Assembly (NCBI RefSeq): GCF_014204865.1
Contig: NZ_JACHMG010000001.1
Span: 1,364,001-1,428,000, forward strand
Reading direction: 5' to 3'
Source of the DNA: Amycolatopsis jiangsuensis
Lineage (GTDB): Bacteria; Actinomycetota; Actinomycetes; Mycobacteriales; Pseudonocardiaceae
Length of the DNA stretch: 64,000 bases
Position numbers and translations under genes: made by a program. Positions 2,234 to 46,098 of the stretch are shown piece after piece. The notes under the pieces are model-generated. The model was not told the origin of the DNA. It saw only the letters and a list, made by a program, of their open reading frames with translations, and ran no database searches. Position 1 is the first letter of the stretch; each line of letters starts with the position of its first letter.

Positions 2234-2332
2234 TTCATCCGTTGTGGCCTCCACTTCGTCCAGGCCGCTTCGAATGCGCGGCCGGTTCCCGTCGAATTTC
2301 GCGCGCGAAAAAAATACCGATCACTGGACCCG

Positions 2333-3816: not shown

Positions 3817-5598
3817 TCATGGGGTGGGCGGGTCGAGTGCGAGCCGCTTCTCCGCGGCGACGCCGGCGTCCGGGGCGGTGCGGGAAAGCCAGGCGGCCAG
3901 AGTCGCCACGCTCGCGGCCTCGTACACCCACAGCAGCGGCACCTCGACGCCGAAGATCCGGGACAGGCGCAAGGAAATGCGCATCGCGTCGATCGAGCGC
4001 CCCAGGTCCGCGAAGCCCGCCGAGCGGCTGACGTCCGGCAGGCCGAGCACGTCGCACCACACTCGCGCGACCGCCTGTTCCACCGCGCCGCGCGGCGGTT
4101 CCACCGCGGCGGGCACCGGCGTCGCGAGGAGCGCTCGCACCGCCGCGTAGTCGGCCTTTCCGTTCGGGTTGACCGGGAGCGCTCGCACCGGCCGGACGTC
4201 CGGCGGGACCAGGTACGCGGGCAGCCGGCCGGCGAGGAAGTCCCGCAAGGCCGGCAGGTCGGTCCCGGACGGCGCGACGCAGGCCGCGAGCGCGCGGCCC
4301 GGGGCGCGCGGGGATTCGACGACCGCCGCTTGCCGGAGGCCCGGGAACTCCAGGAGCGCCGCCTCGACTTCCCCGGGCTCCACCCGGTAGCCGCTGATCT
4401 TCAGCTGGCGGTCCGTCCGGCCGAGGAACTCCAGTTCGCCATCGGGGCGCCACCGGCCGCGGTCGCCGGTCCGGTACCTTCGCGCGCCCGGAACGCCGTC
4501 GGGGTCCGCGACGAACGCCGCCGCCGTCTCGCCCGGCCTGCCCAGATATCCGCGCGCCAGCCCGGCACCGGCGAGGTAGATCTCGCCCGCGGGCGCCGGA
4601 CGGCCGGACTCGTCGAGCACGCTCACTCGCACGCCGGGGATCGAGCGGCCGATCGGCACGGTGTCGAGTTCGGGCAGCACACCGGACGGCGCGTGCCAGG
4701 CGGTGCTCCACACGGTGCCTTCCGCCGGACCGTATTCGTTCGCCAGCCGCGCGTCCGGAACCCGTTGCCGCGCCCGGCGAACGAGTGCGGGCGGGCAGCT
4801 TTCGCCTGCCAGGACGACTGTCCGCAGGGAGGCCACCTCGTCCGGGCCCGCGGCTTCGAGCACGAGATCGAACAGGGACGGCAGCGCCAGCACCGTGTCG
4901 ATGCGGTGGTCGGCGATCTGGCGGACGAGCGCCCGTGCGTCGCTTTCGGTTCCTGTCGGCGGCAGGTAGAGCGTCCCGCCGCCGGCCAGCGTGCCGAAAA
5001 CCCCGGCGACGGCGCTGTCGAACGCCACCGACGACAACAGGAGAAACCTGCGGTACGGCGGATATGCGGCCAGCCGCGCGCGGGTGGAGTTGACGATCGA
5101 GCGGTGCTCGACGGCGACGCCTTTGGGCCACCCGGTGGACCCGGAGGTGTAGATGACGTAGGCCAGGTTCCTGGGGGCGGCCGCGGGGCCCGGAAGCCCA
5201 GCCGGGGTCCGGTCGTCGCGGTTCTCGTCGAGATCCAGCACTGGCAGGCCGCTACCGGTGAACCGCGCGGCCGACTCGCGTTCGGTCAGGATCGCGCCCC
5301 AATTCCGGCCGAGCGCCCGGGTCGCCGGGCCGTCCGGGTCCATCGGGGCGTACGCGCCGCCTGCCTTGAGCGCGGCCAGCGCCCCGACGACCAGGGCGGG
5401 CGATCTGCGGGCGTGCACGCCGACGACCGTCTCGGGACCGACGCCGAGTGCGCGCAGGTCCCCGGCGAGCACGGCGGCGGCCCGGTCGAGCCGCCGGTAG
5501 CTCAGCACGGTCTCGCCCGCGACCACCGCGGCCGAATCGGGATTCCGGGCCGCTGCCTCCGCCACCAGCTCATGAATGCACAGATCGTGCTCCGCCAT
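3817..5598 (-). CDS. Stand-alone NRPS adenylation-carrier didomain (A-T)
   Basis: 593 aa from ATG 5598. The A domain has [14 protein letters not shown] (A3), FDSAVAGVF (A4), NEYGPAEGTVW (A5), GELEFLGRTDRQ and NPNGKADY with the A10 lysine. My manual specificity code is D-S-A-A-V-A-E-V-W. The A-E-V part recalls some tyrosine codes but I cannot assign it. The carrier domain at the C-terminus reads FADLGRSIDAM, so one glycine of the usual LGGxS is arginine while the pantetheine serine remains. There is no condensation domain, so it probably loads an amino acid for tailoring in trans by the adjacent halogenase or the P450. The frame is open to a TTG at 5721 that overlaps the thioesterase stop (TTGA). 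That 41-codon extension has non-coding-like third positions, so I prefer 5598. Confidence 0.9.
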   Translation of the reverse strand: MAEHDLCIHELVAEAAARNPDSAAVVAGETVLSYRRLDRAAAVLAGDLRALGVGPETVVGVHARRSPALVVGALAALKAGGAYAPMDPDGPATRALGRNWGAILTERESAARFTGSGLPVLDLDENRDDRTPAGLPGPAAAPRNLAYVIYTSGSTGWPKGVAVEHRSIVNSTRARLAAYPPYRRFLLLSSVAFDSAVAGVFGTLAGGGTLYLPPTGTESDARALVRQIADHRIDTVLALPSLFDLVLEAAGPDEVASLRTVVLAGESCPPALVRRARQRVPDARLANEYGPAEGTVWSTAWHAPSGVLPELDTVPIGRSIPGVRVSVLDESGRPAPAGEIYLAGAGLARGYLGRPGETAAAFVADPDGVPGARRYRTGDRGRWRPDGELEFLGRTDRQLKISGYRVEPGEVEAALLEFPGLRQAAVVESPRAPGRALAACVAPSGTDLPALRDFLAGRLPAYLVPPDVRPVRALPVNPNGKADYAAVRALLATPVPAAVEPPRGAVEQAVARVWCDVLGLPDVSRSAGFADLGRSIDAMRISLRLSRIFGVEVPLLWVYEAASVATLAAWLSRTAPDAGVAAEKRLALDPPTP

Positions 5599-5717: not shown

Positions 5718-6491
5718 TCAAGACGGTCGCTCCGTTCTCCGGGCAGCGCCCGATCCGGCCGCGGCCAAGACTTCCCGGCAGACCGACGGCAACTGGTCCC
5801 GGTAGTAGAAATGGCCGCCGGAATAGGTTTTCGACAGGAAGTCGCGCGAGGTGTGCGCGGCCCAGCGGGCAAGCAGCTCAGGAGGCGCCAAGGCGTCAGC
5901 GTCTCCGCCGATCGCCAGCAGCGGGCACGAAACCCGTTCGGCACTCGGCCGGTACCGCGCCGCCAGCAAGCAGTTCGCGCGCAGCCGGGACACCACGAAA
6001 TCCAGCACTCGCGGGGAATCGAGCATTTCCTCGTCGACAATTCCCTGCGCGAGCACCTCTGCGCGCCACTGCTCGCCGGTCCTGCCCAGCACCTCCGCCT
6101 CGGTGATCGCCGGCTGGCCGGGCGGCCGGCTGGCCGACACCACCAGCAGCAGCGGCGACCGGGACCGGCGGCCGAGGCGGACAGCCATCTCATAGGCGAC
6201 CAGCGCGCCCATGCTGTGCCCGAGCAGCACCAGCGGTCCCGTCGCGGCCTCGGCCACCGCTTCGGCGGCCTCCGCGGCGAACGCGGCGAGCGCGCTGTCC
6301 TCCCCGGACCGCGGTTCCGGGTACCGGAGCACGAGCGCGGCCTCGTCCGGCCCGACCAGCGGGGGCACCCACTCGGCGAAGCCGAAGCTGCTGCCCCCGG
6401 CGTACGGCGCCAGCACGAACGTGCGTTCCGGGTTTCCGCTGCCGTAACGCCACAGCAACGGGCCGAACGGTTCTCCGGTTTCCATGGTCAT
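5718..6491 (-). CDS. Type II thioesterase of the NRPS cluster
   Basis: 257 aa alpha/beta-hydrolase with the TEII pattern: LAPYAGGSSFGFAEW near the N-terminus, nucleophile motif GHSMG at about residues 91-95, an Asp in GGDADALAP and the histidine in SGGHFYYRDQ. Such free thioesterases clear misprimed or stalled acyl groups from carrier domains. It sits 7 bp after the O-methyltransferase in the same operon. ATG 6491 and the second ATG at 6485 are both possible starts. Confidence 0.93.
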   Translation of the reverse strand: MTMETGEPFGPLLWRYGSGNPERTFVLAPYAGGSSFGFAEWVPPLVGPDEAALVLRYPEPRSGEDSALAAFAAEAAEAVAEAATGPLVLLGHSMGALVAYEMAVRLGRRSRSPLLLVVSASRPPGQPAITEAEVLGRTGEQWRAEVLAQGIVDEEMLDSPRVLDFVVSRLRANCLLAARYRPSAERVSCPLLAIGGDADALAPPELLARWAAHTSRDFLSKTYSGGHFYYRDQLPSVCREVLAAAGSGAARRTERPS

Positions 6492-6498
6492 CCTCCGG

Positions 6499-7656
6499 CT
6501 ACCGCGGCCCGGCGAGCAGGACGCGATGCATGGGGGTGTCCAGCAGCGCCACCCTGGTCAGCCCGGCGCCGTCGAGCCAGCGGTCGTAGTCCTCCGTCCG
6601 GTACGCCCCGCCGCCGCCGGTGGCCAGCATCGACGCGGCGAACAGCCGGGAGAACCGGTTCTGGGCGGAGTGCGCGTCGCCGGTGACGATCTGGTCGACA
6701 ACGGCGACCAGGCCGCCGCCTGCCAGCGACTTTGCCGCCCTGCGCAACAGTTCTTCAGCCGAGGCCGGGGTCTGGAGGTGGAAGATGTTGACGAACAGCG
6801 CGAGGTCGTAGCCGAGGCCCCAGTCTTCCGACCAGAAGTCCATCACCGCAGGCCGGAAACGGTCCGCGACCCCCAGCCGGTCCGCCTGGGCGAGCGCCAG
6901 CGGCATGATCCGCCGAACGTCGATCCCGGTCGCGGTGAGCGCCGGAAACCGGCGGAGCAGCAGGTGGCTGTAGATGCCGCTGCCGCAGCCGACATCGACC
7001 AGCGACACGGGCCGCCGGGGCGTCCAGCCGCGCTCGGCGAGCGCTCCGGCGAGCACGTTCACGATCGGCGGCGCCCAGAAGTTGATGCCGTGCACCAGCG
7101 ACCGGTATTCGGTTTCGCCGATCTGGTTCGGCGCATCGGAGCCGTCTTCGACGCGGGTGCCCGCGCGCACCGTATCGGCGAGGTTCCGCCACGCGCGCCA
7201 AGCGAGGGTCCGGTCGTATTCGATTTTCCCGACCAGGCTGAACAATCCGTCCGGGAGCAGGCATTCCCGGAGTTCGGCGGGCAGCGCGTAGCGCGCGTTC
7301 CCGTCCTCCACGAGCAGGTCGTAGGCGCACAGCGCGTCGAGCAAGACCGACATCGCCCGCGGATCCGCGTCGAGGGCCCGCGCGAGTTCGGCTCCGGAAC
7401 GCGGCTCCCCGGCGAGCTCGACGAACACGCCCAGGTCGTGCGCCGCCTCGATCACGCCAGGAGCCCAGAGCGAAATCAAGTGTTCGTACACCCGGTGCGC
7501 GGCTCCGATCTCCGGCCCTCCCCCGCCCCGGTCCTCGAGCGGGGACGGGTCCACCAAGGGCCGAACACCGGAAAAGCCATTCCTTCGGTAACTCATCGAC
7601 AATTCCTCTGCTCTTCCCGGCACGGGACCGGGAACCGGTTCGCTTCCGGCGTTCAT
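6499..7656 (-). CDS. SAM-dependent O-methyltransferase
   Basis: 385 aa. The N-terminal winged-helix/dimerisation region ([25 protein letters not shown]) is followed by a class I SAM domain with [19 protein letters not shown] (motif I) and [14 protein letters not shown]. It resembles the plant-type OMT family. The usual HDW catalytic stretch is replaced by NIFHLQTP, so whether it methylates oxygen is inferred from the family. Its ATG (7656) overlaps the TGA of the terminal NRPS by four bases, so it is translated with the assembly line and probably methylates the peptide or an aromatic side chain. Confidence 0.85.
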
Positions 7657-10600
7657 CGGCCGAGCCGGGTGCGCAGCACCTGGCCGATCTGGGCCAGCGA
7701 CGCGGGTTTCGTCATCGCTCCGTGCGCTGCCCGCACGTCGTGCACCTCGATCCGGCCGGACACAAGGGTGCGCCACGCCTGCGGATCGGGCGGGGCGCCG
7801 GGCCATCCCTGTGCGGCGCGAAAGAACAAGACGTCGCCGTCGAACATTTCCGGCCGGTGCGACCGCGCCAGCGAAACGCTCGCCGTGAGCACTTCGCTCA
7901 TCGCCGACAGGAGCGTTTCGCTGAGATCCGCGATCCCGCGTGCTCGCAGCATCTCCGCGACCGCCGCCGGCCGAAGCGGCCCTTCGGGCACCGCGTCGAG
8001 ACCGAAGTATTCGACGAGAAGCGCCCGCAGGCCCTGATCCGGGGCCGCCGGTTCGCCGAGCGGAATTTGTCCGGGTGGATAGGAGTCCAGCATCGCCACC
8101 AGCGACACCTCCTCCCCCAGTCCGCGCAGCCCGACGGCGACGGCATGGGCCAACTGGCCGCCGAGCGACCAGCCCAGCAGGTCGTACGGTCCTTTCGGCT
8201 GCACAGCACGGATCTGCGCGAGATAGTCGGCGGCCACGTCTTCGATCGTCGCGTCGATCCGGCCGGGGTCGGTCAGGCCACGGGCCTGAAGCCCGTACAT
8301 CGGCCGGTCGACGGGGAGGTAGCGGAGCAGACCCGCGTAGCACCAGCTGAATCCACTGGCCGGAGGCAGGCAGAACAGCGGCCTCCCGACGCCGGCTCGC
8401 AGCGGGAGCAGCACGTCGAGGGACCCTTCCGCGGCAGCGGTTCCCAGCCGCGCGGCGAATGCGGCGGGAGTCGGCGCGGCGAACAACATCCGTACTGTCG
8501 GCCGGTAGCCGAGCACTGTTCGCACACGGGCTACGAACCGGGTGGCCAGCAGTGAATGGCCGCCCAGCGCGAAGAAGTCGTCCTGCGTGCCGACCGACGG
8601 GAGCTGGAGCACTTCGGCGAACAATTCGCAGATCACCTGCTCGGCGGGAGTAGCGGGCGGCGACGCTTCCGGTGAGGCTTCCGGCACCGGCAGAGCGCGT
8701 CGGTCGAGTTTCCCGTTCGGCGTCGTGGGCAGCCGGTCGAGGGAGACGAAGTCGCTCGGCACCAACGCGCGGGGCAGCACTTCGGCGGCGTGCGCGCGCA
8801 GGCCCGCCGCTTTCGCGGTGCCGACGATGTACCCGACCAGCGCCGGTCCGGCACCGGGCCGGGCGCGCACCGCGACCGCCGCGCGCTCGACGCCGGGATG
8901 ACGCGCCAGCGCGGCCTCGACCTCGCCCGGCTCGATCCGCACGCCCCGCACCTTGAGCTGATCGTCCGCCCGCCCCAGATGCTCCAGCGCGCCGTCCCGG
9001 CGCCGCCGGACCCGGTCCCCGGTCCGGTACATCCGCTCGCCCGGCGGGCCGAACGGATCCGCGACAAACCGCGCGGCAGTCGCTCCCGGCCGTTCCGCGT
9101 AGCCCCGGCCGACGCCGATCCCGCTGTGGTAGAGGTCTCCGGCCACCCCGATCGGCACCGGCCGCAGAGCCCCGTCCAGCACGTACGCCCGGGTGTTCCA
9201 CAGCGGACGGCCGACCGGCCGGTCGTCTTCGGTGCAGAAGACGAACAGGCTGTCGCCGCTGACCTCCGTGCAGCCGTAAAGGTTGACCAGCCTGGCATCG
9301 GGGCTCGCGGCCGCGAGCCGAGCGGGCAACTCCGCGGGCATGGGCTCGCCGCTGCTGCCCACCAGGCGCAGCGTCGCCAGCCGGTGGTCTCCGCCCGCCT
9401 CGTCCAGCAACGCCAGCAACACCGTGGGCACCGCGGTGAGGACGCTCGACCGGCTCGCCGCGATCAGGTCCGCCAGCGCCGCCATGTCCCGCGCCGTCTC
9501 CTCGTCGACCAGTACGACGCGTCCGCCGTGCGCCAGCGGGCGAAGCAGCTCAAGCGGGCCGTCGACGAAGCTGATCGAGGTCCGCGCGCACACGACGCCG
9601 TCGCCGTCGGACGGACGCAGATCGCGGTACCACGACACCTGGTTGACCAGCCCGCCCTGAGTGCCGATCACCGCCTTGGGCAGGCCGGTCGAGCCGGACG
9701 TGTAGAGAACCGACGCGGCCGACTCCGCGGTGCGACCGCCCGGCAGTTCGGCGGGCGCGAGGTTGCCGGCGGGGAACCCGGTCAGCACGACGTCCCGCAG
9801 GTCCACCACCGGCGCCTCGGTCGCCGGGATCCCGTCCGCGTCGGTCAGCACGAGCACCGGCCGGGCGTCCCCGATCAGGTAAGCGATCCGTTCGGCCGGG
9901 TAAGCGGTGTCGACCGGCAGGTAGGCCGCGCCGGCTTTGAGCACGGCGATCAGCGCCACCACCAGATCCGCCGACCGGCTCAGCGCCAGTGCGACGGTCC
10001 GCTCGGGACCGGCCCCGCGGGCCACCAGCAACCGGGCCAGCTGATTCGCCCGCGCGTTCACCTCGGCATAGGTCAGCTCCAGCGGTCCGGCGAGCACCGC
10101 GACGCGGTCCGGATGGCGGGCGCGGCGATCCTCGATCAGCTCGGCGACAGTGGCGGCCGGGAGGTCCCGCCCCGTCGCGTTGCCCGTCTCCAGCCACGTT
10201 CGCGACCGCGGTCCCAGCGGGTCGAGGCTGCCGAGCGGGCGGCCGGGATCCGCCGCGAGGGTCTCGAAAACCGATTCGAGCGCGGCGAGCATCGTCTCCG
10301 CGGCGTCCCGGCCGACCGCGTCCGCCTGATAGTCCAGCCGCAGCCGCAGCCGTTCGCCGGGGATCGCGGCCAGCATCAGCGGGTAATGCGAGGCGTCCAG
10401 CCCGCGCACCCCGGCGACCCGGACGCCGCCGAAGTCCTCGGCGTCCAGCGGCTCGACCGGATAGTTCTCGAACACGACGATCGTGTCGAACAATTCGTCC
10501 AGCCCGGCGCGGGCCTGGATCTCGGCGAGCGGCATATGCTGGAACGGCGTCATCTCGAGCTGGCGGTCCCGCACCGTCCGCGCGACGGCCCACGCCGGCG

Positions 10601-11504
10601 CGTCCGAGCGCAGGCGAAGCCGGACCGGGACGGTGTTGACGAACAGCCCGACCATCTGCTCGACGTCCGGCAGGTCCGGCGGCCGCCCCGTCGTCACCGT
10701 GCCGAAGACCACATCGTCCCGGCCGGTCGACCGGCCCAGCACGATGCCCCACGCGGCCTGCACGACATCGGCGAGGGTCACGCCGCGGGCGCGTCCCCTG
10801 CGGAGCAGCGCCGCGGTGGTGCCCGCGGACAGTTCCGCGACGGCCTGCCGGGGCAGCGTGGGCTGGTTCCGGGCGTGCCGCGGCAAACCCACCAGCGTCG
10901 GCTCGTCCAGGTCCGACAGCTCCGCCTGCCACGCCGCGCGCGCGGCCTCCCGGTCCTGGCCCGCCAGCCACCGCAGGTATTCGCGGTACGGCAGGGCGGC
11001 GGGCAATCCGGAAACGTCTCCGGCGGTCCGGTACAGCTGCAGCAGTTCCCGCACGAGGACCGGTAGCGACCATCCGTCCAGCAGGATGTGGTGACCGGTG
11101 AGCACCAGTTCGCTGCGCTCGGGGCCCAGCCGCGCGAGCAGCAGCCGCAGCAACGGAGGCTCGGACAGAACGAAGCGGGATTCCCTTTCCGCGGCCAGCT
11201 GTCCGGCCAGCTCCGCTTGATCGGCGACGTCGACCTCGCGCACCGGAACCGTGACTTCGCGCGGGACGATCTGCACCGGGCGCTCGACATGCTCCACCAC
11301 GAACGCGGCGCCGACGTGCCGATGCCGGGACAGCAGCGCGTTGACCGCGGCGCGCAGCACGTCCCGGTCCAGTCTGCCGGTCAGCTCCACCACGAGCTGG
11401 GTGACGTAGACGTCGGGGCCGTCTTCGTTGTACAGGGTGTGGAAGAAGAGGCCCTCCTGCAACGGGGACAGCGGAAGCACATCGGCGATCCCGGATGCCG
11501 TCAT
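7653..11504 (-). CDS. NRPS terminal module C-A-T-TE (beta-amino-acid type A domain)
   Basis: 1283 aa. C domain (~10-430) with [10 protein letters not shown] domain (~455-955) with [24 protein letters not shown] and TPNGKLDRR; carrier domain (~970-1040) with [11 protein letters not shown]; thioesterase (~1055-1280) with GWSLGG. At A4 the sequence is SFVDGPLEL, so the usual Asp235 is Val with Asp next to it. The code reads V-D-L-T-V-S-L-G-D. Val/Asp at these two positions is the known hallmark of A domains for beta-alanine and other beta-amino acids, so a beta-amino acid as the last residue is likely (inference). The TE releases the peptide by hydrolysis or cyclisation. ATG 11504 overlaps the stop of the preceding NRPS. 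Confidence 0.93.
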
Positions 11505-14500
11505 GGCCGCCGCCAAGCGTTCTCGAGGCGTTCGATCTGGCATTGGTCCAGTTCGACCAGAGCCAGATCGGACGGAGTGAAGCCGCCGGCGTCGTCCCCG
11601 AGTGCGGCCATGGCGACGAGAGCCGCGAGCCACGAGCCGGCCAAGGCGCCGACCGTCGCTTCCGGCACGAGCGCGCTGGGCCAGGTCCAGGTCGCGCGCA
11701 GCAGCGGCCCCTCCGGACGCTCTTCGACGATCGTGTCCAGGGCCAGCCCGTGCTGGAGGGGCAGCTCGGGGCCGGCACCGCCGCCGAAGGATCCGGCGTC
11801 CGGGGCTGTCGACCAATCCTTGTTCTGCCCCAGCGAGAACCGGCCGAGATTGTTGAAAGCGATCCGCGGCCGCCGTCCGGCCAGCTGCGGCGCGGTCTCC
11901 GGATTCAGGTACCGCAGCAAACCGTAACCGAGGCCGTCGCCCGGAGTGCGGCGCAGCTGTTGCTTCACGTGTTTGATCGCGGTGCCGAGCGCCGGGCCTC
12001 CCTGCCGCACCGCGCCCGCGTCGATGCCCCCGAGGTCCGCGTGCACGGGGTGCGCGCTGGTGAACCAGCCGACTGTGCGGGAGGTGTCGACGTCCGCCAG
12101 ATCGGTTCGGCCGTGCCCTTCGACGTCGATGACCGGACAGTCGCCTCGCCACTGGGCGACCGCGAGCACCAGCGCGGTGAGCAGCAGGTCGTCGATTCCG
12201 CAATGGAACTTCGCCGGCACCTCCGCGAGCAGTCGCGCGGTGTGGTCACTGGCCAGCGTGACCGTCAACCGGTCCGTCGTCGCCGTGGTGTCCCGGCCGG
12301 GAACCGGCACGAGATCGGCGGGTTCCGGATGCGAAAGAACCTGCCGCCAGTACGGCAATTCGCCGACTCGGCGCGGTTGGCGTGCCTCGGCGGTCAGGGT
12401 CTTCGCCCAACGCCGGAACGACGTTCGCGGCGGGAGCAGCAGCGGCGACCGGCCCGTGGCCGCCGCGGCGGCCGCGTCGCCGAGGTCGTCCAGAAGAACC
12501 CGCCACGACACGCCGTCGACCGCGAGATGGTGTATCGCGACGAACAGGCGTCCCTGCGCTGTCTCGCCGGCATCGAACCAGACCGGAACCACGACCCGGC
12601 CCGCGTCGGGATCAAGTTTCCGCACCGCATGCGAGGACTCGGCCGCGACGACATCGGCCAGTGCGCCGGAGGTCAGTCCCGCGACCTCCACCCGGCGCAG
12701 CTCGACCGGCACTCCCGCCGGCTCGACCTCGAGCGACCATTCGGCGCCGCGGACGGTTCGCCGCAGCCGCAGGGCATCGTGAGTGTCCACGACGACCCGC
12801 AGCACGGACTCCAGCGTGTCCCGGCCGAGCCCGGACGGCGTCACCACGAGCATCGATTGGTGAAAGCCCGCGCTGGACCCTCCGAGCTCCCGAAGCCAGT
12901 GCATGACCGGGGTGAGCGGCAGTTCGCCGATGCCGTCGTCGGGCTCGGCGGGCGGTTCTTCGCTCGCCTGCCTGGCCGTCAGCGCGAGTCCGGCGACCGT
13001 TCCGTGCCGGAAGACGTCGCGCGGGGCGAACTCCACTCCCGCCTTGCGCGCGCGGCTGCTGAGGCGAATCGCGCCAATGCTGTCCCCGCCGAGATCGAAG
13101 AAGTTGTCGTCGATGCTCAGCGATGGCACGCCGAGCACATCCGAGAAGAGACCGGTCAGCGCCTCCTCCAGCGGGGTCCGCGGCGCGCGCCCGTCCGCCA
13201 GCTGCGCGAAATCCGGCTCAGGGAGCTGAGCTCGGTCCAGTTTCCCGTTGGGAGACAACGGAATCGCCTCGATCACCAGTACCGTGCCGGGCACCATGTG
13301 GGCGGGCAGCCGATCCGCCGCGAAGGCGCGGATCGCGGCCGGGTCCAGTGCCTCGCCCGCACCGGGAACGACGTAGCCGACAAGGTGCGCGCCGCCTGTG
13401 CCCCGGTGCACCGTCGCGGCCGAACCCGCCGTGCCCGGGCAGTCCTGAAGCACCGCCTCGACCTCGCCCAGTTCGACCCGGTAGCCGCGGACTTTGACCT
13501 GCTCGTCGGACCGGCCCACGAACTCCAGCTCGCCGTCCGGACGCAGCCGCGCGAGGTCGCCCGTGCGGTACATACGGGAGCCGGCGGGACCGATCGGGTC
13601 GGCCACGAACCGCTCCGCGGTGGCGGCGGGAAGATCGCGGTAGCCCCGGGCGACACCGGCGCCGGCGAGATAAAGCTCCGCGGCGACGCCGGTCGGCACC
13701 GGGCGCAGCCGCTGATCGAGCACATAGGTCCGCACGCCGTGCAGCGGCTTGCCGATCGGCGGCGGGCCGTCGGTCAGCGGGCCCGCGGCCGTCGCGGCGA
13801 TCGTCGCCTCGGTCGGGCCGTAGGCGTTGAACATCCGGCACCGCCCGCTCCATTCCCGCACGAGACGCGGCGGGCACGGCTCGCCGCCGACGATGATCGT
13901 CGTGCCGTCCGGGATGGCGTCCGCCGGGAAAGCCGCGAGCAAGGAGGGCGGCACCGGGACGTGCGTGACGGCATGCTCGGCGATCAGCGGCACCAGGTCG
14001 CGCCCCGCGTTCCAGCCGCCCGCGGGCGACAGGACGACCCGCCCGCCCGCGAGAAGCGTGACGACGATTTCCCAGTACGACGTGTCGAAACTCGGCGACG
14101 TGGAGTGGAGCAGGACCGTGTCCGGCCCGAGCAGGCCCAGCTGGGTCCGGGACCCGGCGAGCAGGTTGAGCACGCCGCGATGCGGCACCAGCACCCCTTT
14201 GGGGCGTCCGGTCGAACCGGAGGTGTACATCAGATACGCGGGGTGGTCCGGACGCAGCGCCGAACGTCGTTCAGCGTCGGCGACATTGTCCGCCCGCACG
14301 TCTCCGGAATTCTCCTCGACGAGCAGTACCGGGCAGTCGCCTGGAGCCGGCGTGCTCGTCGAGGAGTCGCGCACGACGAGGATCGGCTTCGCGTCGTTCA
14401 GCATGCTGGCGACGCGATGGGCCGGATAGTCCGGATCCACCGGCAGATAGACCGCGCCCGCTTTGCTGATCGCGAGCAGGGTTTCGACCAGCGCCAGACC

Positions 14501-17500
14501 GCGGCGCAACTGCACGGCGACCACGGTTTCCGGCCCGGCGCCATGACCGGCCAGCACGCGAGCGAGGCGGTTCGCGGCGGCATTGAGCTCCGAGAAGGTC
14601 CGCTGTTGCGCACCGGCGACGAGAGCCACGGCGTCCGGCGTTTCCGCTGCCCGCTCTTCGAATGCGCTCGCGACAGTGCCGCTCGTGCCGTGGTCGGCAC
14701 CGGCCTGGTCCGCCGCGGTCAAGGCCGCCCGTTCACCCGGAGTCAGCACGTCCAGGGCATCGAGCGCGATGTCAGGTCCGGCGGCCACCTGCCCGAGGAT
14801 GCCCAGGAGCCGGGACGAGAAGGCGGCGATCGTCTCCTTCTCGAAAATCGCGGTGTTGAATTCCAGATGGCACTCGATCTCGCCCTCCCCGCGTCCGCCG
14901 CGCGGCCGATCGGTGACCGACAGCGAGAGGTCGAACCGCGACACTCCGAAAGGGACGAAGCTCGACCGCACGGCCAGACCCGGCAGATCGATTTCGGCGC
15001 CGTCATCGCGGTCCATCGTGATCATCACGTTGAACAGCGGCTGATAGGTGCCGGAGCGATGCGGGCTGAGGTGTTCCACGAGCAATTCGAAAGGCAGGTC
15101 TTGATTCCCGTAGGCGGCCAGTCCGGTCTTTCGGACCCGGCCGAGCAGTTCATGAAATTCCGGATTTCCGGCGGTATCGGTCCGCAGGACGATCGTGTTC
15201 ATGAAGAACCCGACCAGATCGTCCGCCCGTTCGTCCGCGCGGCTGGCGATCGGAGTGCCGAGCGGGAGGTCAGTGCCCGCGCCGAGCCGCGTCAGCAATG
15301 CGGAGAGGCCCGCCTGCATCACCATGAACAGGGTCGTGCCGGTGTCCTTGGCCAGGGCGAGAAGCCGCTTGCGCAGGGCGGCGTCGATTCCGAAGGAATG
15401 CACCTCCCCCTCGTAAGCCGGCACCACCGGTCGCGAACGGTCCACCGGCAATTCCAGCTGCGCGGGCGCTCCGGAAAGGGCGTCACGCCAGTAGTCCAGC
15501 TGGCGATGCGCGATGCTGTGCGGATCGGTCATCTCACCGAGACGCTCCGCTTGCCAACGCGTGTATTCGCGATAGGTAAGGGGAAGCTCCGCCCATTTCG
15601 GCGAAGTGCCGTCCAGGCGCGCGGCGTACGCCGTGCCGAGGTCGGCGAGAAGCGGGCGAAAGGACCATCCGTCGGCGGCGATATGGTGCAGGAGAAGAAG
15701 CAGAGTATGCGATTCCGGCCCAGTCGTGAACAATTCCGCTCGCAGCGGCAGCTCGGCTTCCAGGTCGAACGGATGCCGGGCGGCGTGCGCGAGCCGGGCG
15801 TCGAGGTCGGCCGCGGCTGTTTCGTGGTGCCGGAACTCGATTCGCTCGGCTGAGGCGAGCTCTTGGAAGGGATCGCCGTCCCTTTCCGCCACGATCGTGC
15901 GGAGTGTTTCGTGCCGGTCGGCGACATCGCGGATCGCGGATCGCAGCGCCGAGACGTCGAGCCTGCCTTCGAGGTGCAAGGCCAGCGGGATGTTGTAAGT
16001 CCGGCTGGGGCCGTGGAAGCGGTGGTGGAACCACAATTGGCGCTGCCCGAAGGACAACGGCGCCGGTTCTGGGCCCGGAGGCGGTTGATCGGGGACGCCG
16101 TCGATCAACCGTGCCAAACCCGCCGGCGTCGGCCAATCGAACAGGTCCTGGATCGTGATCTCCAGCCCCAGCCGTGCCCGCGCGCGCATGATCAACCTGG
16201 TGGCGCGCAACGAATGCCCGCCGAGGTCGAAGAAATCGTCGTCGACGCCCACCGACGGCAACTCGAGCACCTCGGCGAACACCTCGCACAGCCCGCGCTC
16301 CGACGACGTGCTCGGAGCCTCGCCCTTCGGCGCGTACTCGCCGGCCGGGGCGCGCAGGGCCTTGCGGTCGATCTTTCCGTACGGGGTCAGCGGAAGCTTG
16401 TCCGTCGCGACGAACCGATCCGGCAGCAGGTGCGGTTCCAGCCTGCTCTTGGCGAAGGTTTTCACCGTCTTCGCGTCCCCGCGGTCCGGGGCGAGCACGA
16501 CGTAGGCGACAAGCAGGTCTTCGTGCGCGGCGACCGCGACGTGCACCACATCCGGGTGGCTGCCGATCACCGACTCGACCTCGTTCGGTTCGATCCGGTA
16601 GCCGCGCACCTTGACCTGGTCGTCGGTGCGGCCGAGGAAGTCCAGCTGGCCGTCGTCGCGCCAGCGGGCGAGATCGCCGGTTCGGTACATGCGCTCGCCG
16701 CGCGACCCGAAGGGGCACGCGACGAAGCGTTGCGCGGTGAGACCGAACTGGTGCAGGTAGCCCCGGGCGACGCCGGTGCCCGCGAGGTAGAGGTCGCCGA
16801 CGGTGCCGGGAGGAACCGGGCGCAGTGCATCGTCGAGCACGTACCCCGTCGTCCCGGCGATCGGGCTGCCGATCGGCGGCCGCTCCGCGCCGGCGAGCGC
16901 TCGGCTCATCGTCGCGCACACCGTGCTCTCCGTCGGACCGTACGCGTTGATCATCAGGCGACCGGGTGCCCAGCGCTCCGCCGTCGAGCCGGTAACCGTG
17001 TCGCCGACGACTACGAGCGTGGTCACCGACGGGAGCTCGGTCTCCTTCATGACCGACAGCGCGGAGGGCGGCACCGTCAAGTGGGTGGTACCGGTGCGGG
17101 CGGCCAATTTGACCAGCTCCGGGCCAGGCGTGAGTTGCTCCGCCGGGGCGACCACCAAGGTCGCGCCGGCGAACAGGCTCATCGCGACCTCCGCCATGGG
17201 CGAGTCGAAGTTCGTGGACGCGAACTGCAGCACCTGGGACCGAGTGTCGACTTTCAGCGGCTCCACATGCGACAAGACCAGGTTCGCCAGGCCCTGATGG
17301 GTGACGACCACGCCCTTGGGCACCCCGGTCGTGCCGGAGGTATAGATCACGTACGCGGGATGCGCGGGCAGGCAAGGCGGGACGGCCGGGACTTCGCCGG
17401 CCGGGTCGCCGCCCGCCAGGTCATCGACGACCACGGTCGGCAGCCAGTCGAATTCCGAGCCGGGCACCGCGATGTCCCGGGCGCGCACCAGCAGCCGGGG

Positions 17501-17851
17501 CCTGGCCTGGCTCAGCACCGCCTCGATGCGCTCGGCCGGATAGGTGTGGTCGACCGGCAAGTACGCCGCTCCAGCGCGCCACACCGCGAGCATCGCCGTG
17601 ATCAGGGCGCGGCCACGCGGGAAACTCAGCGCGACGATCGACTCCGGGCCCGCGCCCCGCCGGAGCAGCTCGGCGGCCAGCCCTTCGGCGTCGGCCGCCA
17701 ACCGGCGGTAAGAGACCTGCTCCCCGGGGCAGGCCAAAGCAATGGATTCAGGGTGTGCCGCGACCTGTTCCGCGAACAGCTCCCAAGCGGTCTTGAGGTC
17801 CTGCGGTGCGCCCGCATTGACGCTGTTCGAACCTGTCACTTCGCGTTCCAT
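11501..17851 (-). CDS. NRPS A-T-C-A-T-E (modules 2 and 3)
   Basis: 2116 aa. Order with rough residues: A 20-510, T 525-595 ([12 protein letters not shown]), C 610-1040 (HHIAADGWS), A 1075-1565, T 1580-1650 ([12 protein letters not shown], the GGDS form used before E domains), E 1670-2100 ([22 protein letters not shown]). My first A code is D-S-A-T-V-V-A-V-C, close to Phe/Tyr-type codes. The second is D-T-W-P-I-G-A-I-A, which I cannot assign. The protein starts with A rather than C, and the needed C domain sits at the end of the upstream NRPS, so module 2 is split between the two proteins. The E domain predicts a D residue from module 3. ATG 17851 has an AGGAGG ribosome site and overlaps the upstream gene by 16 bp. 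Confidence 0.94.
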
Positions 17852-20800
17852 CCAAGCCTCCTGATGTCAGCCGCACTCGCGTCTCCCGCAGCACCTTCGA
17901 GCAGCAAGGCGCCGACCTTTTTCGCGACGTCTCTCCCCACCTGCTGAAGGATCGCGGCCAGCCGGCTCGCGATCGATGCCGCCGCGTCGGCATAGAAAAT
18001 GTGGCTCTGGTAGTGCACGATGGCGCGCAACGGACTCTCCGAATCCGCATAGACCACGAGCGACAACGGATAGTGATTCGGCGTGAAGGCACGGATGCCG
18101 GTCACGCTGACGCCGGCGCTTTCCCCCTCTTGCGCGATCCCGGCCCGATCGAGCGGGAACGATTCAAAGGAAACCATGGTGTCGAACAAGGTCCGCCTGC
18201 GAGTCAGTTGCTGAAGCTCGCTCAACCCGTGGTGCTGATAACTCACCAATCCGGCCTGCCGAGCCTGCAGCGCGACGATCAAACCGCCGACGGTGCGCTC
18301 CGGGGAGCAGTCCACGCGCACGGGGACCGTATTGAGCAGCATGCCCACCACTGTTTCGATGCCGGGAACCGGCGACGACCGGCCCGAAACCGCCGCGCCG
18401 AAGATAATGTCCGCACGGCCGGTCAACTGCGAAAGCAGCATGCCCCAAGCGGCCTGGAAGACAGTATTGGCGGTGACGCCCAGATCAGCGGCGGCCGAGA
18501 CGAGTGCACGCGAGTCGGCGGCGTCGAGCGGCACGTGCGCCTTTCGGATGGTGTCGGTGCCGCCGGGACGTCCCGCCGCGTCGCCGACCAGCGTCGGCTG
18601 CGCGCCGTCCAGTTCGCGCTTCCAGGCTTGTTCGGCCTCGATCTTGTCCTGTTTCGCGTACCAGGCCAGGAAATCCCGCTGATTTCCGGCCCTGGGCAGT
18701 CCGGCAGTCGCCGAACCGTAGAGCAGCAAGAGATCTCGCACCAGAACCGGCACCGACCACCCGTCGAGAATCGCGTGATGCACGGTCAGGACGAGTTCGG
18801 ATTCGCCTTCCGACATCCGGATCAGGGTCATTCGCACCATCGGCGGCGTGCCGAGAGCGAACCGATCGCGCAGATCCTCCGCGAGGAAACGCTCGAATAG
18901 CCGATCCCTTTCGGCCGCGTCGAGGGCGGACAGATCCCTCGTTTCCCATGGCAGCGCCACCGACTCGAGCACCAGCTGAAACAGCTCGCCGCGGCTGTCC
19001 GGGGCGAAGGTCGTCCGCAATCCGGCGTGCCGGTCCTGCAGCGCCTGTGCCGCGGCCCGCATCCGGCCGGGGTCGAGGTCGCCCGTCAGGCGCAAAACGT
19101 ACTGCATCTGATAGGCGTCGGCGCCGGAATTGCTGTGCAGGCTGTGAAACAGCAACCCCGCCTGCAACGGCAGCAGCGGCCACACCTCGACGAGACCCGG
19201 ATGTTCGTGCGCCCACTGGTCCAGATCGTCCTGCGCGACCGGAGCCAGCGGCACGTCGGACGGAGTCAACGAGGAGGCCGCCGCCCTCGCGTGCCGGGCC
19301 AGCCCCGTCCACGCGGCCGTCAGGAGACCGGCCAGTGCGGTCAGCTCGTCCTGGGACAGCAGGCCGCTCGGCGCCGCCAGCACAGCCTGCAGCCGTTCCC
19401 CCTCCGGACCGGCTTTGAGCAACGCACTGACTTCCAGGCTCGCCGAAGCGGGCATTTTCGGGTCCTGCGCGGCATCCAGCACGGTCAGCGCGGGCACTTC
19501 GACTTGGCTCCAGGCTCCGGAGTCCGTCGGCGCGAAGCGCCCCAGATAGTTGAAGCAGATCTCGCCGAGAGGCTGGCCGTCGAGTTCGGCGGAGGTGTCG
19601 GGGTTGAAATGCCTGAGCAATCCATAGCCGAGACCCTTGTCGGGAATCGACCGGAACAGTTCCTTGGTGAGCTTGACTGCCTTGCCTGCTGCGGCACCGC
19701 CGTCGAATGCGTCTTCGAGGTCGGCTCCGGCGAGATCGAGCCGGATCGGAAACACCGTGGTGAACCAACCCACGGTCCGGGACAGCTCCGCGCCGGGAAC
19801 AGCTTCCTCCTCCCGGCCATGCCCCTCGACATGAAGCAGCAGAGAGCTTTCGTCCATTCCCTTGTCGCTTCGCCACTTCGCCAAGGCGAGAGCCAGACCG
19901 GCGGTCAAGCCGTCCATGACCTCCGCACGGAATGCCGTCGGCACCGCGGTGAGCAGCGGCTCGGCGACCGCCACCGGCAACGAAATCGAGGTCCGGACAA
20001 CGGTTTCCAGCGTATCGACGTCCGGATCCAGCGACCGCGTTCCGAGCGACGAGGCCGGACCCGCCAAGATCGACTGCCAGAGCGGCAACTCCGCCGCGCG
20101 CCGCGAACTGCGTGCTTCTTCGGCAAGGGCGCGCGCCCAGACGCCTGGTGAAGTCCCGGCCTTCGGCAGTTCGGGCCGGCGTCCCTCGCGAACGGCTGCC
20201 CACGCGTCCTCGAGGTCGGCCAGCAGGATGCGCCAGGACACGCCATCGATCACCAAGTGGTGCAACGCGATCAGCAGTCTTCCCGGGTCGCCGTCGTACC
20301 AGACGAACCGGGCGACGTCACCGGTAGCCGGGTCCAGTCCGGCCGCGACCCGTTCCAGTTCCTGCCGCACGCTGGCCTGCCACTCAGCGCCCCACTGGCC
20401 GGTCCACTCGACCCGGTCCAGTGCAGGCTCCGCAGTCCCCCGCGGCGCCAGGACGATCTCGTCGGCCGTCAGACGCATCCGAAACATGTCGTGATGCTCG
20501 AGAACAGCTCGCAATGTCGCAGTCAGCGTCGTGCTGTCGATCCCCTCCGGCAACTGCACGACCATCGCTTGCAGGAACCGGTCGAAGCCCGCTCCCCAGC
20601 CCCGGATCCATTGCGCGACCGGCAGAAGCGGGAACGAGCCCGCACTGCCGTGCTCGAGTTCCGGCGGGCGAGGCGCGGCCCCGGAGGCCGATCGCGATGC
20701 CACCAGAGCGGCGAGCGCCGCGGCCGTTCGCTTCTCGAAGATCTCCCTGGCACTGACCTCGACGCCGTGCCGCCTTGCCCGGGAGACGACCTGAATCGAC

Positions 20801-22479
20801 TGGATGCTGTCGCCGCCGATGGCGAAGAAGTCGTCGTCGATGCCGACCTGGCCTAACCCGAGCACTTCCGCGAAATGCGCGGCGAAGCTCTCTTCGATTT
20901 CATTGCGCGCCGCCCGGTACTCCGTGCGGCGGGGCGCGGGCTGAGGAAGCGCGGACAGGTCCGGCTTGCCGTTCAGCGTGAGTGGTATCCGGTCCACCGT
21001 GACAAAAGAGGCGGGGACAAAAGGGGCGGGAAGCCTGCTCAGGACGAGCTGGCGCAATTCGCTGTGCACGAATTCTGAATCCAGCGCGATGGACCCGTAA
21101 TCGCGGCTCGTCGAGAGGCCGGTCTCCGCGGCGGGCACGACATAGGCGACGAGTTGCTTGCCCCGCGGCAGGTCGAGCGAAGTCACCAGTGCGTCCGCGA
21201 CCCCCGGATGGCCGGTCAGCACCGCCTCGACCTCGTGCGGTTCGATCCGGACGCCGTGGATCTTGATCTGCGAATCGGCTCTGCCGTGGAACATCAGCTC
21301 GCCGCCCGCCGTCCACGAGGCCAGATCGCCGGTGCGGTACATCCGTTCGCCCGCACCGCCGAACGGATCCGCGACGAACCGTTCCGCCGTCAGCTTCGGG
21401 CGGCTCAGATAGCCGCGTCCCAATGCCGGTCCGGCGACGTAGAGCTCGCCGATCGAACCGGGCGGGACCTGAGCGAGCCGTCCGTCCAGCACCTGAATCG
21501 ACGCCTTCTCGACCGGACGGCCGATCGTGGGCATTTTCCCGGTGACGGCCAGCGGACCGCTCATGCTGGCGCAGACTGTGGTCTCCGACGGACCGTAGGC
21601 GTTGATCATCGTGCGTCCGGGCGCCCAGGTCGCCACGAGATCGGGGTTGGTCGTCTCGCCGGCGACGATCAGGCATCGCAGGCCCGGTACCCATTCCGGA
21701 CGCAGCGGGACGACGACCGAGGGCGTCAGCGCGACATGGGTCACCCCGTTCCGGTCGATCGTGCCGGCCAGCGGGCGGCCCGGCTCGAGTTCCTCCTTCT
21801 TCGCCAGCACCAGCGTCGCGCCGGACAGCAGCGTGGCGAACAGCTCCCACACCGAGGTGTCGAACGCGGGCGACGAGGCTTGCAGGACCCGGCTGCCCGG
21901 CGCTATCCGAAGATGGCCGCGTGCCTGCGCGACGAGCGCCTCCATGCCGGAATGGGTAACCGCCACGCCTTTCGGCTGCCCGGTCGAACCTGAGGTGTAG
22001 ATGACATACGCCGACTGCGCGGACCTGATCTCGGGCAGCCGCACAGCACCGGCTCGAAGCTCGGGCAGCTCTTGTACAGGCAGCTCCTGTATGGGCACTG
22101 CCAGTTCAGGCAGCTTCGCCTTGGTCGCACAGTCCGTCAACACCGTTGCGCAGCCGGAATCGGACACGATGAAGCTGATGCGTTGTGCTGGGTAGTCCGC
22201 GTCGAGCGGCAGGTAGGTCGCCCCGGCCTGGACCACGCCGAGTACCGCGGCGACCCAGTCGGGGGAGCGTTCCGCTGCGACCGCGACGACCGATTCCGCG
22301 GCCGCGCCTGCCTGGACAAGGGCCCGCGCGACCCGGTTCGCGGCGGCGCCCAGTTCACGGTAGGTGAGCTTCCGCCGGCCGAGTTCGACCGCGACGGCCT
22401 CCGGAGTTTCGCGCACCCAGCGCCGGAACAGGACCGGGATAGACGGACCGCCAGCTGCGCCACGGCTCGCCGGTCTCAA
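17836..22479 (-). CDS. NRPS loading module A-T-E plus C domain
   Basis: About 1547 aa. A (~15-520), T ([12 protein letters not shown]), E ([24 protein letters not shown]), then a C domain (HHAILDGWS) that should accept the D-aminoacyl donor. The A code D-T-W-A-I-A-A-V-C is very near the GrsA phenylalanine code (DAWTIAAVC), so an aromatic D residue opens the peptide (inference from the code). With no C domain before the A domain, this is the starter. Start choice: TTG 22479 overlaps the methyltransferase TGA (TTGA) and has GGGGAGG five bases upstream. ATG 22518 is possible but has no good ribosome site. Confidence 0.93.
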
Positions 22480-24131
22480 GGTCGCCTCCCCGCGCGGCCG
22501 GGCCAAGCCACGCCGCATTCCAGCACCGACAGCTCAGCGCCCGGCATCTCGTGCACGCCTTCGAGCCGAAACCCGGCCGCACCCAGCAGTTCGCTCCAGC
22601 CGGATCGGGTTCTTTCCCTGCCTCCGCAGGCGGACAACATGAGGAGATCGTTCAGGCGCCCGGACCGGTCTCCGGTCTCGGCCAGCACCCGGTCCACGAT
22701 CAGCAGGCGCGGGGCCGCGTCGCGACAGGCGGCCAGGATGTCGACAGCGCGTTCGTCCGGCCAGTTGTGCAGCACGGCGGCCAGTACAGCGACATCCCCC
22801 CGGGGAAGTTCGTCGGTCAGCATGTCCGCGCCTCGCAGGCGCACCCGGTCCGACAGCAGCGGATGCTCCGGAAGTGCGGACAGCGCCACCACTTCGGGCA
22901 GGTCCACCAAGACCGCGTGCAGCTCGGGGCGCAAACCGAGCAGCAGCTCCAGCAGGGCGCCGGTGCCGCCGCCGACATCGACTATCAGCCCGGTGCCGGG
23001 CCACACCGGCAGTTCCAGCAACGGCTCGTACATTTCGTGCGCGCGGCTGTGCATCTGGCGATGGAACGCGGCGAGCTTTTCGGGCGCGTCCGTGATCCGC
23101 TCGAACACGGGAGCGCCGAACACCTCCGGATAGCAGGGTTCGCCGGTGCGGACACTGTGCATGAAGCCGGTCCACAGGGCGAACATGTCGTTGTCGGCGA
23201 ACTCCGCCCGCAGGCTTCCCGGCGTGTCAGTCGCCAGGAGCGTGCCCGCGGGAAGAAGCCGCCACTCGTCCCCCGGCCCCGGCGCCACCACGTCCAGCGT
23301 CGCCGCGGCCCGCAGGATCCGGTCCAGTACCGGTGCCGGTGCACCGACGAGTTCGGACAGCTGGACGGCGGACCGCGGCGTGGCCAGGTGATCGGCCACC
23401 CCGAGGACGGCCAGGGCGTGCAGCACCCGCCCGGGAGCCGGGTCGGCCAGCGAACGCAGCCTGCGCGCCTCCGAAGGAGCGAGAACCGCCGCGCGCGCCC
23501 GCTCTTCCGCCTCGGCCAGCTTGCGTTCCGCGGCATCGCCGAGCGTACCGGCGAAGATCCGCCGATAGTGCCCGAGCAACCGGAGGGCTTCGTCCCCAGG
23601 AATGTCCGAAGCGGCCAGGAAGGCCAAATCCGTGGGTGCCATATGCCGCGCGCCCAGCAGCGGCACCGGGCTCGCCAACGGGTGAAATTCCGAATTGTGC
23701 AGGCCTGCCGCGGCATTGCCGGGGAAGAACTCCCCGAGCATGAGCCCGGACTCGACAAAGCTCGACTTCAATTCGCGCTGGACACTTTGCACCAGGCCGA
23801 TCAGCTCGTCGTCCGGAATGCCATAGGGCACTACGACGACGCTTCGGCGGGCTGCTTCGGCCGACTCGTCGCCAGCGAGCTCTTCGCGCACGCTAACCAG
23901 AATCCGGTCCAGCTCGACCCGGCCTGCGGTCGCGTCCCACTGCCGCAGCTCCACTCGCCCGTTCCGCAGTGCGTTGCGCATGAACGGACAGACATCGCCC
24001 GGCCTGCCGAGATCGGGGTGCGGCGCGGCGACAAAGCTCTCCATCCACTCCAGCGCCTGGCCGGCCCGGTCAGCCGCGGATTTCCCGGACTCACCGGGTT
24101 CATGCGAACAACGGAATTTTCTGTCCTGCAC
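22476..24131 (-). CDS. DUF6875-like domain fused to O-methyltransferase
   Basis: 551 aa. Residues ~15-185 form a conserved domain with [46 protein letters not shown] and [21 protein letters not shown] recognise it as the DUF6875 family, whose function I do not know. From ~220 on there is a class I methyltransferase: a helical dimerisation part, [20 protein letters not shown] and [10 protein letters not shown] with the catalytic-type histidine, typical of small-molecule OMTs. GTG 24131 is chosen because GGGAG lies eight bases upstream and it follows the antiporter stop directly. The ORF could extend to 24188 but would then overlap the antiporter by 56 bp. It probably methylates a hydroxyl of the peptide or a precursor. 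Confidence 0.85.
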
Positions 24132-24132
24132 G

Positions 24133-28557: not shown

Positions 28558-29340
28558 TCAGCGCGAGGCGTAAAGGGTATAGATGGCGATGCCGTCCGGC
28601 AGGTCGTCGGCGAGCACGGCCGTGACAGTGAAACCTCGCTCGCCGAGCAGCGCCTCGGCGGCGGCCAGCGCCCCGCCGGTGTCCTGGATCTCGGCGACCA
28701 CCTGCCGGATCCGGGCCCAGTCGCCTTCGTCCAGTCCGCGCAGCACGTCCACCTCGGCGCCTTCGGCGTCGACCTTCAGCAGGTCGATCGGGCGCGTCGG
28801 CTCGACCTCGGCGAGGACGTCGGACAGCCGCTTGATCTCGACCGGAACCGTCTCGCTCCGGAACGCTCCGGTCGTGGTCACCTCCTGGAAAACCCGTTCG
28901 CCGACCAGGTCGAGCAGCGGGCCTTCCTTGAGTTCCCGGTACCGCGTGGAATTGCCGGGCAGCTGCGGGTAGAACGTGAAGTCCACCCTCGCCTCCGCGC
29001 GCTCGCCCAGCCCGGACGGGAACACCCGGACCCGGTCGGCTCCGTGCAGTTCCAGGTTGGCGCGCAGGGCCGCCACGAGCGCCGGATGCGGTTCGAAGGC
29101 CAGCACGTCGACCTCGGCCGCCTCCTTGCTCGCGAACAAGGAGAACAGTCCCACATTCGCGCCGACGTCCACCACCAGCGCGCGGTCCGGGATGTCGATC
29201 CCCTCCCGAAGATAGCTTCGCCGGGTGAACACCTCGTCGTAGATGAAGTTGATCTCGGCGTACTTGCCTGCCGGATCGACGGTCGCGTAGCACGCGAAGC
29301 CGTCGGCCAGGTCCAGTTTCACCGCAGCCATTTCCACCAC
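28558..29340 (-). CDS. FkbM-family methyltransferase
   Basis: 260 aa. SAM-binding VVDVGANVGLFSLFASK, LAFEPHPALVAALRANLELHG and the FkbM-typical IDLLKVDAEGAEVDVLRGL. The family methylates hydroxyls, for example on sugars or polyketides, so it may tailor the peptide or a sugar. The GTG at 29340 is preferred because GAGGGGAGG lies six bases upstream; the ATG at 29361 would place the ribosome site inside the gene. It is the most upstream minus-strand gene of the NRPS run, with 141 bp to the P450. Confidence 0.88.
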   Translation of the reverse strand: MVEMAAVKLDLADGFACYATVDPAGKYAEINFIYDEVFTRRSYLREGIDIPDRALVVDVGANVGLFSLFASKEAAEVDVLAFEPHPALVAALRANLELHGADRVRVFPSGLGERAEARVDFTFYPQLPGNSTRYRELKEGPLLDLVGERVFQEVTTTGAFRSETVPVEIKRLSDVLAEVEPTRPIDLLKVDAEGAEVDVLRGLDEGDWARIRQVVAEIQDTGGALAAAEALLGERGFTVTAVLADDLPDGIAIYTLYASR

Positions 29341-29431
29341 CGCTGACCTCCCCTCGGACAATGGCAGACTATAGTCGACGATAAACGTGTCAAGCAGGTC
29401 AAGAACAGCCTAAATATGCGGCGCGAGAAAT

Positions 29432-35008: not shown

Positions 35009-35036
35009 CCGTCCACCACACCCGACGAAGGAAGTC

Positions 35037-46095: not shown

Positions 46096-46098
46096 TTA

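Follow-up and report, generated by a model that had tools for sequence, protein, structure and literature searches.

Biffamycin A, the tetrapeptide encoded by the bif cluster of Streptomyces albidoflavus, contains 5-chloro-4-methoxytryptophan, and its authors knew no earlier example of a chloro-methoxytryptophan (PMC13285481, 2026). The bif nonribosomal peptide synthetase (NRPS) is built from adenylation (A), peptidyl carrier protein (PCP), condensation (C) and epimerisation (E) domains in the order A-PCP-C-A-PCP / C-A-PCP-E-C-A-PCP-SurE. It joins Ile, chloro-methoxytryptophan, hydroxylysine and Gly, with a D residue at position 3, and the product is mannosylated. The modified residue depends on a set of tryptophan hydroxylase, O-methyltransferase (O-MT), Na/H exchanger and tryptophan halogenase, hydroxylase and O-MT being separate there. 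In work on zigralone, DUF6875 proteins are reported to be heme tryptophan oxygenases, and the member ZigI together with the methyltransferase ZigH methoxylates an indole; these are separate proteins of a meroterpenoid pathway, with neither an NRPS nor a halogenase (PMC13307353). Kribbellichelin and kasichelin are described as siderophores without halogenated tryptophan, made by actinobacterial NRPS that take beta-alanine or beta-aminoisobutyrate (PMC9962454, PMC12305651). The locus analysed here, on 64,000 nucleotides of the Amycolatopsis jiangsuensis genome (the window), combines a four-module NRPS, a DUF6875-O-MT fusion, two halogenases and a terminal A domain of the type expected for beta-amino acids.

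It appears fairly likely that this locus is an NRPS cluster for a halogenated, methoxylated tetrapeptide of the composition D-Phe-like residue, modified aromatic residue, D-(chloro-methoxytryptophan) and beta-alanine, released by a thioesterase (TE). In the proposed course, A1 would load a Phe-like residue to be converted to the D form by E1, and A2 a larger aromatic residue, plausibly an O-methylated or chlorinated tyrosine. The fused DUF6875-methyltransferase would hydroxylate and O-methylate tryptophan and the tryptophan halogenase would chlorinate it; the modified tryptophan would then be loaded by A3 and turned into the D form by E3. A4 would add a beta-amino acid, for which beta-alanine drawn from primary metabolism is the simplest candidate, and the TE would release a linear or cyclic peptide. 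One of the residues is probably beta-hydroxylated on its carrier by a P450sky-like enzyme. More tentatively, and somewhat short of an even chance, one bifunctional heme-oxygenase/O-MT chain and a halogenase would supply chloro-methoxytryptophan to a line ending in a beta-amino acid, yielding a new, possibly cyclic class of halogenated tetrapeptides with chlorines on two different residues. The window would hold a second, differently built line predicted to use chloro-methoxytryptophan. An earlier first-pass annotation had recognised no matching product, and no product of such composition was found in topic searches of open-access full texts, a result that does not establish novelty, most subscription papers being outside the scope of the search.

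The domain order proposed in that annotation, A-T-E-C / A-T-C-A-T-E / C-A-T-TE (T, thiolation domain), with module 2 split over two proteins, was recovered with Pfam in three minus-strand open reading frames (ORFs) with intact core motifs: a C domain ends NrpsA, and A2-T2 begins NrpsB (Table 1). AMP-binding scores of 260-500 bits per protein are far above chance. This is the make-up of a modular NRPS: C, A and T domains whose active-site motifs are intact, and a TE. A motif scan matched GG[DH]S in each of the four T domains of the line and GWSLGG in the TE; every A domain has its A3 and A10 motifs, and HHxxxDG[VW]S occurs in C2, C3 and the two E domains. C1 was not matched by this last pattern, its translation reading HHAILDGWS. 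C1 and C3 start with PLxPLQxGLxFH, C2 with a different motif; by sub-type rules these are presumably the D-accepting (DCL) and L-accepting (LCL) types, respectively. The predicted sub-types fit the order of the line, C1 and C3 coming after E domains and C2 after T2. NrpsC ends in a TE (PF00975) and not in a SurE (PBP-like) release domain of the biffamycin type.

Table 1. Genes and domains of the predicted tetrapeptide cluster (positions in the window)
Feature	Position	Strand	Description	Evidence
NrpsA	17836..22518	minus	1560 aa; A1 (DTWAIAAVC)-T1-E1-C1 (DCL-type N-terminal motif)	Pfam, code alignment, motif scan
NrpsB	11501..17851	minus	2116 aa; A2 (DSATVVAVC)-T2-C2 (LCL-type motif)-A3 (DTWPIGAIA)-T3-E3	Pfam, code alignment
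NrpsC	7653..11543 (start may be 11504)	minus	1296 aa; C3 (DCL-type motif)-A4 (VDLTGSLGD)-T4-TE	Pfam, code alignment
A4 adenylation domain	8709..10133	minus	Val-Asp replacing Asp235	Pfam, code alignment, [VI]D clade
DUF6875 + O-methyltransferase fusion	22476..24188	minus	570 aa; end overlaps NrpsA start	Pfam
Na/H exchanger (CPA2-type)	24133..25455	minus	BifJ-like by family and position	Pfam, NCBIfam
Flavin-dependent tryptophan halogenase	25452..27017	minus		Pfam, PDB sequence search
Cytochrome P450	27238..28428	minus		Pfam, PDB sequence search
FkbM-family methyltransferase	28558..29361	minus		profile search
O-methyltransferase OMT1 (second O-MT)	6499..7596	minus		Pfam
Type II thioesterase-like protein	5718..6491	minus		Pfam
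Stand-alone A-T didomain	3817..5598	minus	ATG 5598, TTG 5721 possible	code DSALVAEVW (His-type clade); T motif LGRS
CndH-like flavin halogenase (carrier-bound phenol halogenase family)	2333..3784	minus	ATG 3784	PDB 3e1t match

The NRPS and flanking genes are co-directional and closely spaced. Start codons ATG are present for NrpsB, at both candidate positions of NrpsC and for NrpsA, for which 22518 is the first ATG rather than 22479. A listed ORF beginning with TTG at 12203 is longer than the true NrpsC gene, because homology to the terminal protein of a related cluster in genome G343, described below, begins near the 11543 start (at residue 12 by blastp or 3 by tblastn, numbered from that start).

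Specificity codes were taken from an alignment with a fragment of GrsA. Of the 36 letters read by hand in the first-pass annotation, 35 were reproduced; the exception is position 299 of A4, given there as V and read here as G, the segment aligned at this point being LVGSSGE. In a tree of 64 A-domain rows, whose bootstrap values were not fully settled (given below as pairs), A1 and A2 fall into a part of 19 rows holding Phe/Tyr-type codes (87/94, below the starred level of the tree), which supports the aromatic-type pockets claimed for both. The nearest row to A1 is a DVCMVGVAA domain of another genome (97/84). A2 is sister to the first DAWTVAAVC domain of the related clusters (96/87), A3 to DTWAVGAIA of genomes G343 and G332 (100/100), and the stand-alone A domain groups with DSALIAEVW domains (100/98). 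A4 joins an IDVTLSFSE group (100/99), itself inside a [VI]D clade that contains IDTTISLGD domains from the genus of the window (100/99). Among six window code strings only one, DVQFVAQVV of a plus-strand NRPS, was found in open-access full texts, where it is listed as Pro, and of six near-neighbour strings only DSALIAEV was found. The order D-aromatic, aromatic, D-X, beta-amino acid given in the first-pass annotation holds with respect to the four modules and to D residues at positions 1 and 3, as predicted from the E domains; the unspecified X at position 3 can be narrowed to a probable tryptophan derivative by the sister domain of A3 and the DUF6875 and O-MT genes.

Orthologues of the terminal module were detected only with an A4 query, at 61-62%, in two out of 397 genomes of the order, G343 and G332, and in the same two out of 160 genomes of the genus of G343; three (order) and nine (genus) candidates were scored per genome, and further orthologues may be missed. 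The clusters are located at G343:C1:~116200-143400 and G332:C1:~1730400-1757700. Since four compared neighbouring genes are 93-98% identical between them, the two amount to barely more than a single example. Each contains an NRPS of about 5.1 kaa with the codes DAWTVAAVC, DAYFWGVTF, DAWTVAAVC and DTWAVGAIA, followed by a C-A-T-TE protein with IDVTLSFSE; DAWTVAAVC is taken to be a Phe-type code. DAYFWGVTF is listed as Val in a table of PMC9113097. NrpsC matches the terminal protein of G343 at 57% over 1296 columns (56-57% in both genomes), while C2-A3-T3-E3 of NrpsB aligns with the final part of the large NRPS (55% over 1535 columns) and A2-T2 with its first A-T (56% over 572 columns). NrpsB thus resembles the first A-T of such a line fused to the last elongation module, and NrpsA may have been recruited in front; A1 has no close relative in these clusters. 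Further common features are a P450, next to the terminal NRPS in G343 and 40% over 388 columns to that of the window, and DUF6875 and O-MT, which are adjoining separate genes there and match the fusion halves at 34% over 186 and 35% over 311 columns. A line of five A-type modules that apparently opens with a C domain, a Phe/Val/Phe-type front end and a gene of the KamA family are peculiar to G343 and G332, whereas the halogenases and the stand-alone A-T were seen in the window only. At E 1e-15, neither 57-kb stretch around these clusters contains a tryptophan halogenase, a CndH-like halogenase or an exchanger.

The best evidence on A3 is that both its module and the DUF6875/O-MT pair are common to the window and the homologous clusters; the substrate of A3 is therefore most likely a methoxy/chloro-tryptophan, as judged from gene content. 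The DUF6875 part of the fusion scores 148 bits against a Pfam cut-off of 24.5, appears to fold like AglA, a heme-thiolate enzyme with Cys-ligated heme, and carries a cysteine, Cys67, invariant in 18 of 18 aligned rows. No match to the DUF6875 profile was obtained among PDB sequences up to E 1. With the whole fusion as query, 37 pattern matches in the named genome collection included none confirmed as a relative, and none of the matches listed (60 relatives; at most 23 candidates scored per genome) spans both domains. PF21780 was found at E 1e-15 in three of 396 genomes of the phylum, including that of the window, a sample too thin for a census; more occur in the genus of the window. Hydroxylase and methyltransferase in one chain would make a compact enzyme for methoxytryptophan and a defined target for expression.

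Halogenation, predicted earlier for the product, is supported by two flavin halogenase genes, from which alone the chlorines are deduced. The tryptophan halogenase is related over its full length to tryptophan 6-halogenase 5hy5, its best PDB relative (1042 bits, residues 1-518), with 801 bits to the 5-halogenase 8fov, and has the WxWxIP motif (GWIWTIPL in the translation). The ring positions in the product are not told by such comparisons: ZigI is of the C-7 type, BifE hydroxylates C-4, and among halogenases of known structure the closest is a 6-halogenase. Compared by family and neighbourhood, exchanger and tryptophan halogenase appear to correspond to bifJ/bifK; BifE may not be a DUF6875 protein. 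TE release, two E domains, a second halogenase and the predicted beta-amino acid distinguish the window from bif (PMC13285481). Searches with the halogenase gave 49 named loci, and none of 55 A-domain codes read within 10 kb on each side equals a window code; no orthologous cluster was obtained in this way. At one of these loci, L046 (Virgisporangium), a separate DUF6875 gene lies beside the halogenase; L060 (Actinomadura) was considered as a similar cluster and dropped, other codes including DVFSVAAFY being nearby. The P450 scores 275 bits to 4l0e, its third-best PDB match, and 205 to 3mgx, which we take to be P450sky, acting on carrier-bound amino acids, and an OxyD-type enzyme; two CYP125MRCA entries are higher (305-307, 8vxi at 307).

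A domains for beta-amino acids are characterised by replacement of Asp235 combined with Asp at position 236, as known from the bleomycin literature. A4 carries this signature as Val-Asp, in agreement with the first-pass annotation, and groups with domains of the codes IDVTLSFSE and IDTTISLGD. In G343, the gene for the large NRPS is directly preceded by genes for a KamA-family protein of the lysine-2,3-aminomutase family (CxxxCxxC motif) and a GntC/VioD-like pyridoxal phosphate (PLP) enzyme (L234:12650-15219), the KamA-family gene being two genes upstream; their G332 counterparts are 96% and 98% identical. The occurrence of a KamA-type gene together with an orthologous terminal module of the [VI]D type independently supports the predicted beta-amino acid at the end of the line. 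The substrate of the KamA-type protein is not told, since its 128 bits are well below curated cut-offs (199 for TIGR00238). The pair may indicate that the sister product of G343 contains a cyclised guanidine beta-amino acid.

No aminomutase or other gene for beta-amino acid supply was found among the window ORFs scanned with profiles, and beta-alanine is therefore the simplest choice for A4, though not proven. The solved structures closest to A4 in a PDB sequence search are alpha-amino-acid domains of linear gramicidin synthase, which are uninformative on its substrate. In open-access papers, none of six beta-alanine code strings was found, and a word search for beta-alanine and Asp235 gave nothing. 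The A4 code was also absent from the 24 best loci, other than that of the window, whose codes were read in 80 genomes of the genus. Of these loci (L071-L094), 20 carry IDTTISLGD domains, in 17 cases within an open frame close to 6000 aa long (5990-6094); they represent an NRPS widespread in the genus and predicted to use a beta-amino acid.

That A4 takes a beta-amino acid with a substituent or a basic side chain (beta-aminoisobutyrate, 3-aminobutyrate, beta-Lys or beta-Arg) in place of beta-alanine is rather unlikely. This would agree with the KamA-family and GntC/VioD-like genes near the closest relatives of A4, which point to a processed beta-amino acid there, and, in PMC12305651, a domain of a beta-alanine/beta-aminoisobutyrate line matched a beta-aminoisobutyrate domain at 80%. 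However, the lack of a supply gene among the scanned window ORFs argues against it, and A4 differs from IDVTLSFSE at six of nine code positions (V/I, L/V, G/L, L/F, G/S, D/E), so that the substrate probably differs as well. Beta-alanine is still preferred for A4. The comparison with the sister clusters makes the [VI]D code directly testable, since the two A domains are orthologous but differ in code and probably also in the beta-amino acid used.

At position 2, a larger residue is proposed because position 239 is Ala in A2 but Trp in the Phe-type domain that is its sister. GrsA W239S reportedly accepts O-propargyl-tyrosine, and by analogy A2 may have room for an O-substituted tyrosine, which OMT1 and the CndH-like halogenase could supply. 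The latter is related over nearly its whole length (561 bits) to 3e1t, presumably CndH of chondrochloren biosynthesis; unlike that enzyme it adjoins a His-type A-T. Among 20 places with CndH-like homologues (53-60%) and 19.5 kb of context, four have the code DPYHGGTLC and four a DPCQ/DPIQ-type code, which we take to be those of dihydroxyphenylglycine (Dpg, glycopeptide type) and of beta-tyrosine domains of C-1027-like clusters, respectively. At L145 and L146, in two members of the genus of the window, DAWELGLVF/DAWEVGLVF A domains lie directly beside CndH-like halogenases.

The His-type code of the stand-alone A-T speaks for a role other than tyrosine supply. DSALVAEVW is one residue off the first nine letters of DSALIAEVWK, a code reported for His and beta-hydroxy-His (PMC12283262), and the domain clusters with DSALIAEVW as noted. 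A2 and the A-T moreover have DSA and two further letters in common. Stand-alone A-T, CndH-like halogenase and thioesterase could accordingly make a free chlorinated and/or hydroxylated His to be loaded by A2, which would place a His derivative rather than tyrosine at position 2. This is considered unlikely in view of the Phe-type sister of A2 and of the nearest solved halogenase relative and the codes beside its homologues, which indicate phenolic substrates.

It is equally doubtful that the left operon (A-T, CndH-like halogenase, thioesterase, OMT1) serves another product, or that the cluster is non-functional as a unit, even though the 57-kb stretches of G343 and G332 showed none of the four genes and the region is bracketed by insertion sequence (IS) copies, with a broken junction in the plus-strand neighbour. 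The genes trail NrpsC on its own strand, the intervals being 56, 7, 119 (none if TTG 5721 is used) and 38 bases, as in an operon. That methoxytryptophan is loaded by A1, and another residue by A3, is very unlikely: both codes carry D-T-W and A1 lacks a close relative in the homologous clusters, but only A3 has a sister of near-identical code in clusters also holding DUF6875 and O-MT genes.

The cluster lies between two IS3-family copies in the same orientation (L095:16289-17539, equal to G000:C1:1361289-1362539, and window 46094-47306), which are 97.2% identical over 1213 bp, are the only two near-full matches found in the 8.05-Mb genome and bracket about 47.5 kb. A composite transposon is not claimed; the outer flanks, GAC and GTC, show no matching target-site repeat, and the left end of the right copy is missing. 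Left of the IS, L095:1-15928 is a defence-like island with Eco57I/MmeI-type methylases, a UvrD helicase, a protein kinase, and helicase-domain and PLD-domain proteins. Window 1-2254 (minus strand, extending into L095), directly left of the halogenase operon, encodes a RamC-like kinase and a LanC-like protein, of the class III/IV lanthipeptide synthetase type.

A second operon is located on the plus strand (34031-41842), with a TauD-like oxygenase, an SbnA-like PLP enzyme and an argininosuccinate-lyase-like protein (278.2 bits against the argH cut-off of 279.5). The SbnA-like and lyase-like pair (35037-37549), for which the scanned ORFs included no SbnB-like partner, may point to 2,3-diaminopropionate formation by an aspartate/fumarate route. 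The lyase-like gene is followed by the start of a gene, ATP-grasp-like by eye, which near 37660-37675 passes, out of frame, into a T domain of a plus-strand T-C-A-T-TE NRPS with the Pro-type code DVQFVAQVV; this broken junction looks like a natural deletion joint. Elsewhere in the genome, a large second NRPS locus (G000:C1:3667611-3704973) has DVFSVAAVY/DVFSVAIVY codes, presumably of the piperazic-acid type, and a DTWTIASVD domain that was recovered in two overlapping loci.

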